Below are positions 18,586-22,883 of a stretch of 49,155 nucleotides of DNA, one piece after another. Each line of letters starts with the position of its first letter. Position 1 is the stretch's first letter. A program made the translations under genes and the position numbers. The notes beneath the pieces were generated by a model. It did no database searches, was not told the DNA's origin, and saw only the letters and a list, made by a program, of their open reading frames with translations. This DNA is from Geminocystis sp. M7585_C2015_104 (GTDB taxonomy: Bacteria > Cyanobacteriota > Cyanobacteriia > Cyanobacteriales > Cyanobacteriaceae), in the NCBI GenBank assembly GCA_015295805.1, contig DVEF01000006.1, positions 1 to 49,155 of the forward strand, read 5' to 3'.

Positions 18586-19575
18586 CTATTCTGATATTGT
18601 TAGGTTTTCTTCCAAATCTTTTAAAATCTTGCTATAAGACTCTCCATGACGGGGTATAACACTAGCCACTGAACACAACAAAACACAATCTGTATAATCT
18701 TCTCTAGACTTCAGTAAACTTCTTATCTTTCTAACCATGTTATTCTTTACACATGTGGCGCCCTTTTCGTCGGTATTTGGCAACATCACCATGAATTTAT
18801 TTTCCTTGCAATATGCCCCTAAGTCAGCCGGGCGTTTAGTCTCCTCTAAAATTATGTTCCCTAGGAGGGCTAGTGTAACATCTTCAAGGGTTTTTTCGCA
18901 ATTTATAACAATTAAAATAAGGGAAAGTGGTTGTCTTTCCCTGGCTAATCTCCTCCATTCATAGTCTATACAATCCATAAAGGAGTTATAATTGGCCAGA
19001 CCTGTCACTTCATCCAACAGGGAATAAGACTGACAACTCTCTTCTACCATTTTTAGTCTTTCATAAACAAAACTCCTCTCTACTGCCAGAATGATGTATT
19101 GTATAATCTCTCCTATTTTCTCAATTTCCTTTTGTTGCCATTTTCTTTGACAATCATAATCATAAATATACAAAAAACCCCATAGTTTATTTTCTAATTT
19201 TTTTTCCCCATCCTCCTCCCCATTCAAGGCAACAACCTCCGGGGTTTGTAGCCAAATTGGGAACACTAACTCGGCACGATTTATGGGATGGGTGTCCTCT
19301 TCATCGTATATATCTTCATGAGTTAAGTAGTTTTTTTTGTCTCTCTCTATTTTTCTGCTAAGTAGAGAAGTTATAGCTTCATAAGCCCCACCATATAACT
19401 CGATATCTTCCCTAGTCTCCCCGCTAATTTCAATTATTTCTCCTTGAGTTTCTTCCCCCTGTATTCTCTCCACAAAAACCTGATCTACCCTCAACTCCTC
19501 TTTTATTTTTGCCAAAAGAATTGGGAGAGTCAAATGATAGTCTAGGGAAATAAATAGAGACTCAATTCCGCCCAT
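18586..19575 (-). CDS. Degenerate GGDEF-domain protein with N-terminal GAF-like region
   Basis: A 329-residue protein. Residues ~10-170 look like a GAF-type sensor ('LWGFLYIYDYDCQRKW', then 'IGEIIQYIILAVERS'). A helix leads to a diguanylate-cyclase fold starting 'DEVTGLANYNSF' (188-199), which matches the usual DxLTGLxNR entry. The active-site GG(D/E)EF is replaced by KENKF (257-261), while the following 'MVMLPNTDEKGA' is conserved, so the alignment is secure. It cannot be a normal diguanylate cyclase. It may bind a nucleotide or act as a protein-interaction domain. No RxxD inhibitory site is seen. It is transcribed divergently from the XisF-like gene, 74 bp away. Confidence 0.85.
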   Translation of the reverse strand: MGGIESLFISLDYHLTLPILLAKIKEELRVDQVFVERIQGEETQGEIIEISGETREDIELYGGAYEAITSLLSRKIERDKKNYLTHEDIYDEEDTHPINRAELVFPIWLQTPEVVALNGEEDGEKKLENKLWGFLYIYDYDCQRKWQQKEIEKIGEIIQYIILAVERSFVYERLKMVEESCQSYSLLDEVTGLANYNSFMDCIDYEWRRLARERQPLSLILIVINCEKTLEDVTLALLGNIILEETKRPADLGAYCKENKFMVMLPNTDEKGATCVKNNMVRKIRSLLKSREDYTDCVLLCSVASVIPRHGESYSKILKDLEENLTISE

Positions 19576-19649: not shown

Positions 19650-21059
19650 ATGATAACATCAATTGAGAGGCCTTTGCACAGGGAAGCAGCAGTGACGGCC
19701 ATGGCCTATTTTTATAAAAACCCCCTAATCAATCAGGAGACAAAATTGGGATGCAATATAGGGCGAATAGAAAAAATATATCAGGATATAGGCGACAGAA
19801 GACAGCTGAGAAAACTAATTGAAGATTGCCAGAATGAAAAACCAGACTGTTTAATGGTATCCAGTTTGGCATCTCTGGGTGATAACCTGGAAGAAGTAGA
19901 AGGAATAATCACACATTTGGAGTCATTGGGTGTGGAAATTATCGCCGCAAACGAAGGGTATAAAACTAGTGATTTTAAGGTGGTAGATACACCCACAAAA
20001 AGGAACAAACTCAGAGAAATTTGGAAACAAATAGAAAAGGAGTTGCAAAGAAGAAAATTAATTCTATCCCACGCAATAAGGAAAATGGAGACTCTGCCAC
20101 CACCGGGGAGGGCTCCCTTCGGCTATATAAGGGGCAATAAGGGCTATATGATTGACCCCGTAAATGCCCCGATAATCAGGGAGTTTTTTAGGGTTTTTTT
20201 ACTCTCAGGCAGTCTCAGAAGAAGTGTAAAATATCTGGAAGAAAAATACCAAAAAAAAATCTCACCATCTACTGCCAAAAACTGGCTGAAAAACCCGGTA
20301 TATAGGGGAGATTTGCTGTATAACAAAAACACCATCGTCTCTGATACCCACCCTCCAATCATAACTAGACAAGAAAGTGCTCAAATTGAGCGCCTTTTGA
20401 GAAACAACAAAAAATTTGCCCCGAAAAGTGTCTCCTCAAAACACTGTCTCGCCGGCTTACTAAAATGTAAAAGCTGCCAATGCCCCCTCAGGGTTAATCC
20501 TGTAAGTAACAAAACAAAGGGGTATTCTTATTTGTATTTAACTCCCACAAATTGCCCTAAGAATAAACCCTGTAAGTCCCTGTCATACAATTCGGTGTTG
20601 ACGAGGCTCATTGAAACGATATGTAATTTATTTGAGGCAATTAAAGAAACGGAGACAGAGAGGGATAAAATAGAGGAAACAAGAAACATTGAGAGGGAGG
20701 AAATCAAAAAGATAAAAGAAAAATTGGAGGTGATAAGAAGACTAGAAGATGAGGGAGTGTTAGAAGAGGAAGAAGCCAAAAAGATAACTTACCGTCTGAG
20801 GGAAAAGATGAGTAAAATGCAACAAAAAATAAACCAAATGCCGCCAAACACCCTAGGGGTGATAGCCAAAAATCTGTCTAACCCCCAGTTATGGCATGAC
20901 TTGTCAAATTCAGAAAGAAGATTCTATCTAAGGGAGTTTATAGACACCATAGAGGTAAATATGGGGGAGAATCATGATGATAAACTCGAACTGAATCTCG
21001 TTTTTGCTAACCCACAAATAGGCAATTCATGGCAGAATAAATTAAACAAACAAGAGTAA
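19650..21059 (+). CDS. XisF-like large serine recombinase homologue without catalytic motifs
   Basis: A 469-residue protein with the complete architecture of large serine recombinases: a resolvase-like N-terminal domain (1-125), a Recombinase domain ('RAPFGYIRGNKGYMIDP' to 'NPVYRGDLLY', 150-225), a zinc ribbon (Cys273, Cys276, Cys302, Cys308), a long coiled coil (330-395) and a C-terminal tail. It resembles XisF, which excises the fdxN element in heterocyst formers. Its catalytic motifs do not fit: the Y-x-R-x-S strand is 'FYKNPLINQE' (21-30), with Pro where the nucleophilic Ser should be, and DRxxR is replaced by 'SSLASLGD' (71-78). The frame is intact, so this is not simple decay. It probably binds DNA without cutting. 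Confidence 0.85.
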   Translation: MITSIERPLHREAAVTAMAYFYKNPLINQETKLGCNIGRIEKIYQDIGDRRQLRKLIEDCQNEKPDCLMVSSLASLGDNLEEVEGIITHLESLGVEIIAANEGYKTSDFKVVDTPTKRNKLREIWKQIEKELQRRKLILSHAIRKMETLPPPGRAPFGYIRGNKGYMIDPVNAPIIREFFRVFLLSGSLRRSVKYLEEKYQKKISPSTAKNWLKNPVYRGDLLYNKNTIVSDTHPPIITRQESAQIERLLRNNKKFAPKSVSSKHCLAGLLKCKSCQCPLRVNPVSNKTKGYSYLYLTPTNCPKNKPCKSLSYNSVLTRLIETICNLFEAIKETETERDKIEETRNIEREEIKKIKEKLEVIRRLEDEGVLEEEEAKKITYRLREKMSKMQQKINQMPPNTLGVIAKNLSNPQLWHDLSNSERRFYLREFIDTIEVNMGENHDDKLELNLVFANPQIGNSWQNKLNKQE

Positions 21060-21113: not shown

Positions 21114-21551
21114 ATGCGTATTTTACATACAATGATAAGGGTGGGGGATTTGGAAAAGTCCCTAGACTTTTATTGCAATGTTTTGGGGATGAAACTGTTG
21201 AGGAAAAAAGACTACCCCGGCGGCAGATTTACCCTCGCCTTTGTGGGTTATGGAGATGAGGCTAACAATAGTGTAATCGAATTAACCCACAACTGGGACA
21301 CCGACAGCTATAATCTGGGTGACGGATTTGGACATATAGCAATAGGAGTAGATGACATTTACGCCACTTGTGAACAAATTAGGGCTAAGGGTGGTAAAAT
21401 AACCAGAGAACCGGGTCCAATGAAGCATGGTAGCACAGTAATAGCCTTCGTAGAAGACCCAGACGGTTATAAAATAGAGTTAATCCAACTATCTAGCCGA
21501 GAGAATAGTCCACAACAAGAAGAAAAACAAACATCAGTGGCAAGTGTCTAG
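21114..21551 (+). CDS. gloA: Lactoylglutathione lyase (glyoxalase I)
   Basis: Converts the methylglyoxal-glutathione hemithioacetal to S-lactoylglutathione, detoxifying a by-product of sugar metabolism. The 145-residue protein has all four metal ligands of the Ni/Co-type enzyme: His5, Glu56, His74 and Glu122. Two vicinal-oxygen-chelate repeats cover nearly the whole length; the last ~18 residues are a polar tail rich in Q and E. A clear ribosome binding site (AAGGAGGGGA) precedes the ATG. It follows the recombinase-like gene by 54 bp and ends at a terminator hairpin, so the two could share a transcript. Confidence 0.95.
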
Positions 21552-21656: not shown

Positions 21657-22883
21657 CTACCTGGTAAACAACTGGAAATAAATGGATGTGACTAACTCCT
21701 TAATGGGGAATAGGACATAGGTTAGGGGATTAATAGTCACAATAATGTCACGACAATCCCTAGTGGCAAGATTGACAATTTGTCTGGCAACCCAGTCTGG
21801 AGACATTACCCCAATGGGGTTAAGATTACTCTTAAAAGGCCCTAAAATGAGTTTTCGGATGACACAGGGGGCATTTATCCTTTTCAAAGTTACAATATCC
21901 CCCATGGTACGTTTACTCATCTCATAAAGAGGACTAAATGCTGGACTTACTTCTGCCTCGGACGTATTAACCCATATTTCTTTTGTAGCCTTGTCCTTAT
22001 TGGTTTTAACGGTGGCTAGGAATAATTCCATTAATCGCCACTGGGAAAAGGTATTAATTTCAAAAGAATTTTGAATGGCTTCTGCAGTTTTTTCCCCATG
22101 CACATTAATACCGTGATTGAGGATAAGAATATCAGTTTTTGCCAGAATTTCGGCCAAATCCGATTCTCTCCCTATCTGCCACTTAATAGTTTTAATGGGG
22201 ATTTGTTTGTCATCAATGTTTATTGACAATTCCTTATCTCGGGAGGTTAAGGCAGTAACTTGTGCCCCTTTTAAGTATAGCTGTTTAGCCAAGGCCCGTC
22301 CCAGGGCTCCATTGGCGCCTGTGATGGCAATCCTCTTGCCCTTTAAAGAAAGAGATGTGCCCATTATCTTATCTACCAATGTAATAGTACCACAAAAGTA
22401 GGCATTTTGGTCGTCAAAATGATGACGCCAATGGTAAGGACGATTTACTAACCAGTCCCCCGGAACTTGGGTAAATTCCCCCGGACGATGGGTCACATCT
22501 GTAATAACATCCGCACCTGGTATTCCCAACCCACGAGCTATGGCACCCCCTGTAAATGTTAGACTGTAAACAGTCCCACTCCAGGCTAACCATTCTAACC
22601 CCTCCCTCAACCACTGTTGTCTTAGCACCGTCAGGGCGTAAATAATGCTAAAACTTAGCATAACCAGGGATTCCGGGAAATCGTTGTACCAGTTGGCCTT
22701 TCGGTAAATCTCCTCACTGTATACTGATAAATCCGGTTTAAATACCCTATGGTGCCATCCGTGTAGTTTACATAGTGGCTGCCACACATGTCCCAATACA
22801 TGGTATATGTCTCTCACCACCTCCACCCATACTATAGACAACAACCCTATTACTCCTCCCCATAGTACGCCGTTTATGCTCAT
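21657..22883 (-). CDS. Fused membrane hydroxylase/sterol-desaturase-like and short-chain dehydrogenase
   Basis: A 408-residue two-part protein. The N-terminal ~175 residues have several hydrophobic helices and histidine clusters (HGWHH near 40-44, 'THRPGEF', HWRHH near 152-156) like the di-iron fatty-acid hydroxylase/sterol desaturase superfamily. From ~180 a Rossmann SDR begins: KRIAITGANGALGRALAKQL with the TGxxGxxG nucleotide motif, 'LILNHGIN', and a YxxxK catalytic pair in 'YEMSKR'. This fusion is annotated in many cyanobacteria; the substrate is not established to my knowledge. The ribosome binding site is AAGGGGAT just before the ATG. Likely an integral membrane enzyme with a cytosolic SDR domain. 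Confidence 0.85.
   Translation of the reverse strand: MSINGVLWGGVIGLLSIVWVEVVRDIYHVLGHVWQPLCKLHGWHHRVFKPDLSVYSEEIYRKANWYNDFPESLVMLSFSIIYALTVLRQQWLREGLEWLAWSGTVYSLTFTGGAIARGLGIPGADVITDVTHRPGEFTQVPGDWLVNRPYHWRHHFDDQNAYFCGTITLVDKIMGTSLSLKGKRIAITGANGALGRALAKQLYLKGAQVTALTSRDKELSINIDDKQIPIKTIKWQIGRESDLAEILAKTDILILNHGINVHGEKTAEAIQNSFEINTFSQWRLMELFLATVKTNKDKATKEIWVNTSEAEVSPAFSPLYEMSKRTMGDIVTLKRINAPCVIRKLILGPFKSNLNPIGVMSPDWVARQIVNLATRDCRDIIVTINPLTYVLFPIKELVTSIYFQLFTR

Follow-up and report, generated by a model that had tools for sequence, protein, structure and literature searches.

A cyanobacterial protein family related to large serine integrases that lacks the catalytic residues and may act by binding DNA

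SpoIVCA of Bacillus is a domesticated yet active recombinase, which works by recombination, and in the known serine recombinases arginine residues activate the phosphate. XisF-type proteins are located inside the elements that they excise, according to a published account (PMC4874684). Here we describe a related gene from the cyanobacterium Geminocystis sp. M7585_C2015_104, found in a stretch of 49,155 nucleotides of contig DVEF01000006.1 (hereafter the window). An earlier note, made from the letters of this stretch, had called its product a full-length XisF-like serine recombinase that has lost its catalytic serine and become a domesticated DNA-binding protein. In one library of open-access literature we found no earlier description of such a non-catalytic family.

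The gene and its missing active site

The frame is uninterrupted, as the earlier note had said: it runs on the forward strand from an ATG at 19650 to a stop at 21059 and encodes 469 aa, although a GTG at 19692 may be the true start, judging from relatives that begin near there. The features of the gene are as follows:

19650..21059, forward strand: whole gene, a member of a serine-recombinase family without catalytic residues, 469 codons and the stop (frame, domains, relatives)
19695..19979, forward strand: residues 16-110, a resolvase-like N-terminal domain that has lost the catalytic residues (alignment; 3guv fold match)
19713..19721, forward strand: residues 22-24 (Y-K-N), which are R-V-S in active recombinases (alignments, motif test)
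19869..19883, forward strand: residues 74-78 (ASLGD), which are DRLxR in active recombinases (alignments, motif test)
20085..20414, forward strand: residues 146-255, the Recombinase domain (putatively DNA-binding), which evolves most slowly (Pfam, dN/dS, identity)
20415..20669, forward strand: zinc-ribbon region, residues 256-340, with C273, C276, C302 and C308 (Pfam, below cut-off; cysteine conservation)
20670..20849, forward strand: residues 341-400, a region of two long helices where integrases carry a coiled coil (predicted structure)
20850..20969, forward strand: conserved C-terminal segment, residues 401-440, W-x-D-L-S-x-x-E-R-R-F-Y-x-R-E-F (family alignment)

The protein has the domains of a large serine recombinase, with Pfam scores of 33.9 bits for Resolvase (PF00239, cut-off 23.3) and 47.5 bits for Recombinase (PF07508, cut-off 21.1). 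The zinc ribbon (PF13408) is a weak match, at 18.8 bits under a cut-off of 25.3, and three of its cysteines, C273, C276 and C302, are present in 102/102 family rows and the fourth, C308, in 93/102 (rows with an identical C-terminal stretch collapsed). The top NCBIfam model is the XisF equivalog NF041201, whose cut-off of 375 is far above the 150.5 bits of our protein, so that the name XisF-like is right at the superfamily level only; the PHROG 95 integrase also matches, with 187.6 bits. When solved structures were searched by sequence, the A118 integrase was recovered (E about 1e-4), the rest being chance matches near E 0.6. The structure model (mean pLDDT 81.4, pTM 0.53), in which the helix pair is predicted with confidence, matches 4kis_B, a DNA-bound large serine recombinase, over residues 141-455 (Z 15.5, rmsd 5.2, 271 aligned), and its N-terminal domain matches the resolvase-type 3guv (Z 13.8, rmsd 1.9 over 96 residues); the rmsd is large for whole-chain matches, and fold likeness alone shows no function.

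In an alignment with 23 other recombinases, Y20 falls on the Tyr of Y-x-R-V-S, the place of the Arg is taken by Tyr22 and that of the Ser by Asn24, and the place of DRLxR reads A74-S75-L76-G77-D78; the Ser-Gly loop of most other recombinases is shorter in the window protein, and D46 and R50 are retained. The window protein thus has neither Y-x-R-x-S nor DRLxR. The earlier note had read Pro in place of Ser and Lys in place of Arg, which is one residue off, as these are Pro25 and Lys23; it had also given SSLASLGD as the replacement of DRxxR, and here the motif is indeed absent, its exact place being ASLGD. Because a second alignment opened a gap near residue 24 and paired this residue with a different column (a register shift), the loss was also tested free of register. 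Y-x-R-x-[ST] was found in 0/117 family rows, DRLxR in 0/118, and R-x-S near the site in 2/117 (L120 and L095, of one genus), against 25/27 and 23/27 for the first two motifs in the comparison set of other recombinases, where the exceptions are L084 and L032 for Y-x-R-x-[ST] and four proteins for DRLxR. Some of these comparison recombinases, L075, L074 and L076 among them, have frames of 591-630 aa with insertions relative to XisF.

The same picture emerges position by position in 121 distinct relatives (collapsed as above, with gapped rows excluded from each n). Position 24 is Asp in 80, Asn in 14, Glu in 12, His in 4 and Tyr in 1, and never Ser (0/111, 10 gaps); position 22 is Tyr in 113, Phe in 2 and Ala in 2, and never Arg (0/117, 4 gaps). 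At position 23, where an alternative Ser would be closest, the residues are mixed (43 Thr, 35 Ser, 15 Ile, the remainder others; n=118); position 75 is mostly Glu (81) or Asp (24), with Arg in 1/118, and position 78 is mostly Asp (75), Glu (18) or Asn (12), with Arg in 2/118. The former catalytic site carries instead a motif of the family's own, Y-x-Y-[ST]-[DEN]-P, and the site of the same-genus relative is equally degenerate. Neither of the two observations that the earlier note had named against itself was made, namely another conserved Ser/Arg pair or the canonical motif in close strains; the loss of the catalytic Ser, the Arg and DRLxR is family-wide and not specific to the window protein.

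Could the family cut DNA with another nucleophile, such as Tyr20, Tyr22 or Asp/Asn24? Such an active recombinase is scarcely credible to us: Y20 and D46 (117/117 rows each) and Y22 (113/117) are conserved as it would require, but Arg is gone at position 22 and, save for the 1 and 2 of 118 rows given above, at 75 and 78, and three members lack the whole domain. In these three (L088, L089 and L090) the frames are 340-347 aa long and start a little ahead of the recombinase domain. Their 11-kb regions, searched with an N-terminal-domain profile, gave no credible remnant (best E 0.4); a further locus, L093, has remnants of the domain in two frames. L088 and L089 are sisters in the tree, which implies at least two separate losses of the domain. 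These losses fit a protein valued for its putative DNA-binding part.

Distribution, descent and selection

The family gene is present in 55/60 genomes of relatives, our own included, and in 53/55 of those at least 90% complete (E 1e-5), as well as in 124/195 genomes drawn evenly across the class, again including our own (E 1e-20), the other 71/195 being without a match. When 244 genomes from the phylum were searched by profile, 96 gave a match at E 1e-10; some of these, including all six outside the class (best 4.3e-20), are relics or weak hits on other recombinases. At least 17 genomes of a small-genome family (f34) had no match, and no f34 genome had one. Loci from the relatives, class, XisF-model and phylum searches are best matches and not a random sample. 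The gene is nearly always single: our genome (2.82 Mb, 108 contigs) has no second copy of the protein at E 10, and the exception is G199, which has two. Both lie on one contig (L097 and L098, frames of 437 and 336 aa, the second truncated) and are a segment duplication with some neighbours in common.

A contig scan by short exact peptides recovered just two proteins, a close relative and the ordinary recombinase L032 (25%). Searches of mobile elements returned distant proteins: phage and plasmid records, queried with the relative L017, gave 44 phage and 5 plasmid matches, none of which reached 60% identity, the range being 22-28% among the matches listed (8 of the 44 phage records); a scan of viral contigs gave nine loci with 21-27% identity. 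In a tree built without the N-terminal domain, one branch with 100% SH-aLRT support parts 42 family rows from 27 other recombinases, this being a quick tree with long branches. In a second tree, likewise a quick one, with 121 members, assigning the 38 taxonomic families takes 41 label changes, the minimum being 37. As far as the sequences indicate, the gene tree follows the taxonomic families and inheritance is mainly vertical. Vertical descent, a near single copy and a position off mobile elements are what a gene domesticated by its host would display, with G199 as the exception.

Two further explanations tie the family to elements or to active recombinases. In the first, the dead integrase would be a guard or decoy that occupies the attachment sites, or poisons the integrase tetramers, of incoming elements. 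The domains for site recognition are retained with the chemistry gone, and XisF-type recombinases do occur in some genomes (13/195 of the class sample over the model's cut-off), yet neither an attachment site nor such an element was identified and the family is found in many genomes without XisF over the cut-off, so that we hold this to be very unlikely. In the second, which we rate as even less probable, the protein would be a helper subunit for an active XisF-type recombinase encoded elsewhere. Its homology to XisF (150.5 bits) would suit this role, but at E 1e-20 the XisF model finds nothing further in our genome, which has no second copy of this protein either, and the 13/195 class genomes with XisF over the cut-off compare with 124 that have the family. 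Among the control genomes searched with the XisF model, Synechococcus elongatus, the species of the laboratory strain PCC 7942, gave a match, which may be the family gene.

Purifying selection has kept the gene with its catalytic site lost. Across 27 disjoint pairs, dN/dS ranges from 0.061 to 0.552, with a median of 0.149 and 23/27 at or below 0.27; the top ratios, 0.552 included, come from pairs that are saturated, with dS close to 1 or greater. Restricting the set to dS < 0.8 leaves 16 pairs, with a median of 0.135 and a maximum of 0.269, and the window protein and its same-genus relative give 0.173. These ratios, together with the invariant zinc cysteines, argue against a decaying pseudogene, an explanation with next to no probability in our judgement even though broken copies do exist: there are split frames at some loci (for example L095, L096 and L103), a relic with 11 stops in G339 (C1, 1826495-1826866; a 2.8-Mb genome, whose 4.8-Mb same-genus relative G336 carries the complete gene) and fragments of the gene in G350 (C21 and C145). 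Given such copies and the 71/195 unmatched class genomes, the family gene is not essential everywhere.

Constraint is uneven along the protein. The domain medians, computed as domain dN over whole-gene dS (the split frame of the pair L129/L103 inflates one domain value), are 0.215 for the N-terminal domain, 0.080 for the recombinase domain, 0.145 for the zinc ribbon, 0.232 for the long helices and 0.116 for the C-terminal segment, and mean identity within the family is 0.62 in the recombinase domain and 0.36 in the N-terminal domain. This bears on the idea of a chromosome bridging factor, in which two bound dimers would join two sites in the manner of an integrase synapse, without cutting. The helix pair at the coiled-coil place is retained and confidently predicted, and the modelled fold matches synaptic integrase complexes, with a large whole-chain rmsd; the helix-pair region is, however, the least constrained of all, and we consider bridging possible but unlikely. 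Since the N-terminal and long-helix regions evolve faster and the N-terminal domain is absent in three members, pairing or bridging need not be general.

Gene neighbourhood

Directly 3' of the family gene lies a gene of the glyoxalase superfamily:

21114..21551, forward strand: gloA, lactoylglutathione lyase (TIGR00068, 180.8 bits against a cut-off of 120)

gloA is downstream of the family gene in 7/13 f1 loci. A second glyoxalase-fold (VOC) gene, which is not gloA, matches PF00903 and scores under the NCBIfam cut-offs, precedes the family gene on the same strand, at no more than 1 kb, in 32/121 loci spread over 16 taxonomic families; in the class sample it precedes it by 0-1108 bases in 28/124 family-positive genomes (neighbours chosen by reading coordinate lists, with distances recomputed). 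By our estimate, chance would place it there in far under one genome at one VOC match each. The adjacency changes 14 times on the family tree, a count that takes in two loci outside the 32: L095, with an overlap and a split frame, and L094, at a distance of 2.1 kb. In the neighbourhoods of 61 loci, family and overlying shadow frames aside, VOC/gloA is the commonest cluster (15 loci), and each remaining cluster that was inspected covers at most 9 loci, mostly of one genus or family. L107 has gloA first, then VOC and then the family gene. Together these arrangements suggest an old gene cluster.

A narrower form of our preferred reading takes these neighbours at face value, with the protein as a local transcription regulator of the adjoining glyoxalase-superfamily gene, perhaps responding to reactive carbonyls. 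The recurrent upstream VOC gene, the downstream gloA and the arrangement at L107 speak for it. However, the VOC neighbour is missing at most loci and its adjacency changes repeatedly; f46 genomes lack the family gene yet carry VOC; and our own genome has no VOC orthologue, its sole match at E 0.001 being gloA (1.7e-4), nor was a VOC gene found in G000 and G003. Footprinting, too, gave no candidate binding site: nothing stood out beyond coding or start regions, whether upstream of the family gene in three groups, between the window and its nearest relative, or upstream of the VOC gene (some of the alignments being poor, and L176 and L048 giving no VOC start). Old gene order by itself could account for the pairing, and local regulation is in our opinion an unlikely, if reasonable, explanation. 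Promoter-like sites number 5 where 5.1 are expected, and terminator-like sites 5 where 2.8 are expected; neither count is informative.

Other neighbours were noted in passing. The divergent gene at 18586-19575 (reverse strand) matches GGDEF (PF00990, 35.7 bits against 23.8) and by eye has YCKENKF in place of the GGDEF signature, and so its product may be a second degenerate enzyme. On the reverse strand at 21657-22883 is what by eye looks like a fusion of a membrane hydroxylase-like and a short-chain dehydrogenase-like protein, and the neighbour clusters of L093, L101, L130, L135, L137, L140, L141 and L142 resemble, also by eye, subunits of light-independent protochlorophyllide reductase.

Proposed role and comparison with known recombinases

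Our preferred reading, held with moderate confidence, is that the family is an ancient, mainly vertically inherited, non-cutting descendant of a large serine integrase that serves as a putative DNA-binding regulator or architectural factor. The sequences give good support to the earlier proposal of a domesticated protein without recombinase activity, since both searches for contrary evidence were negative and purifying selection acts on a gene whose site is lost family-wide; the terms DNA-binding and nucleoid or regulatory factor are what we infer from the conserved domains and the modelled fold. The residues for cutting are lost and a chromosomal gene is kept under selection, which means that the protein probably binds DNA without cutting it. 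The machinery for finding and holding DNA seems to have been retained; the cutting machinery has gone, and this state is inherited.

In such a protein, the recombinase and zinc-ribbon domains would bind one or a few chromosomal sites, the N-terminal domain, where kept, would mediate pairing, the long helices may tether two sites, and the role of the bound protein would be regulatory or architectural, the foremost possibilities being regulation close to its own cluster and DNA bridging. A site would be sought first in this gene cluster, which often has a glyoxalase-fold gene. Tentatively, and as a possibility we would not call probable, early cyanobacteria may have captured an integrase, dropped its chemistry and kept site recognition and synapsis as a bridging or regulatory factor that much of the class has inherited since then: a synapse without cleavage. 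If our preferred reading is true, the family is a natural case of an integrase descendant turned into a host DNA-binding protein. Automatic annotation would name its members recombinases or XisF-like, which is probably wrong throughout the family.

The family thus resembles three known systems and differs from each: (i) with XisF, the excision recombinase of the fdxN element (NF041201), it shares the domain order and can be aligned over most of its length, but XisF-type proteins keep Y-x-R-x-S and DRLxR, whereas the family has neither, scores far under the cut-off and forms a separate clade. (ii) With the large serine integrases of phages (A118, 4kis; Bxb1; PhiC31) it shares the Recombinase domain, the cysteines of the zinc-ribbon region, the helix pair and the predicted fold; in contrast to them, it is chromosomal, to all appearances vertically inherited and without catalytic residues, and no adjoining element was seen. 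(iii) Like SpoIVCA, it is an integrase relative retained by its host, and unlike SpoIVCA it has been retained without the catalytic residues.
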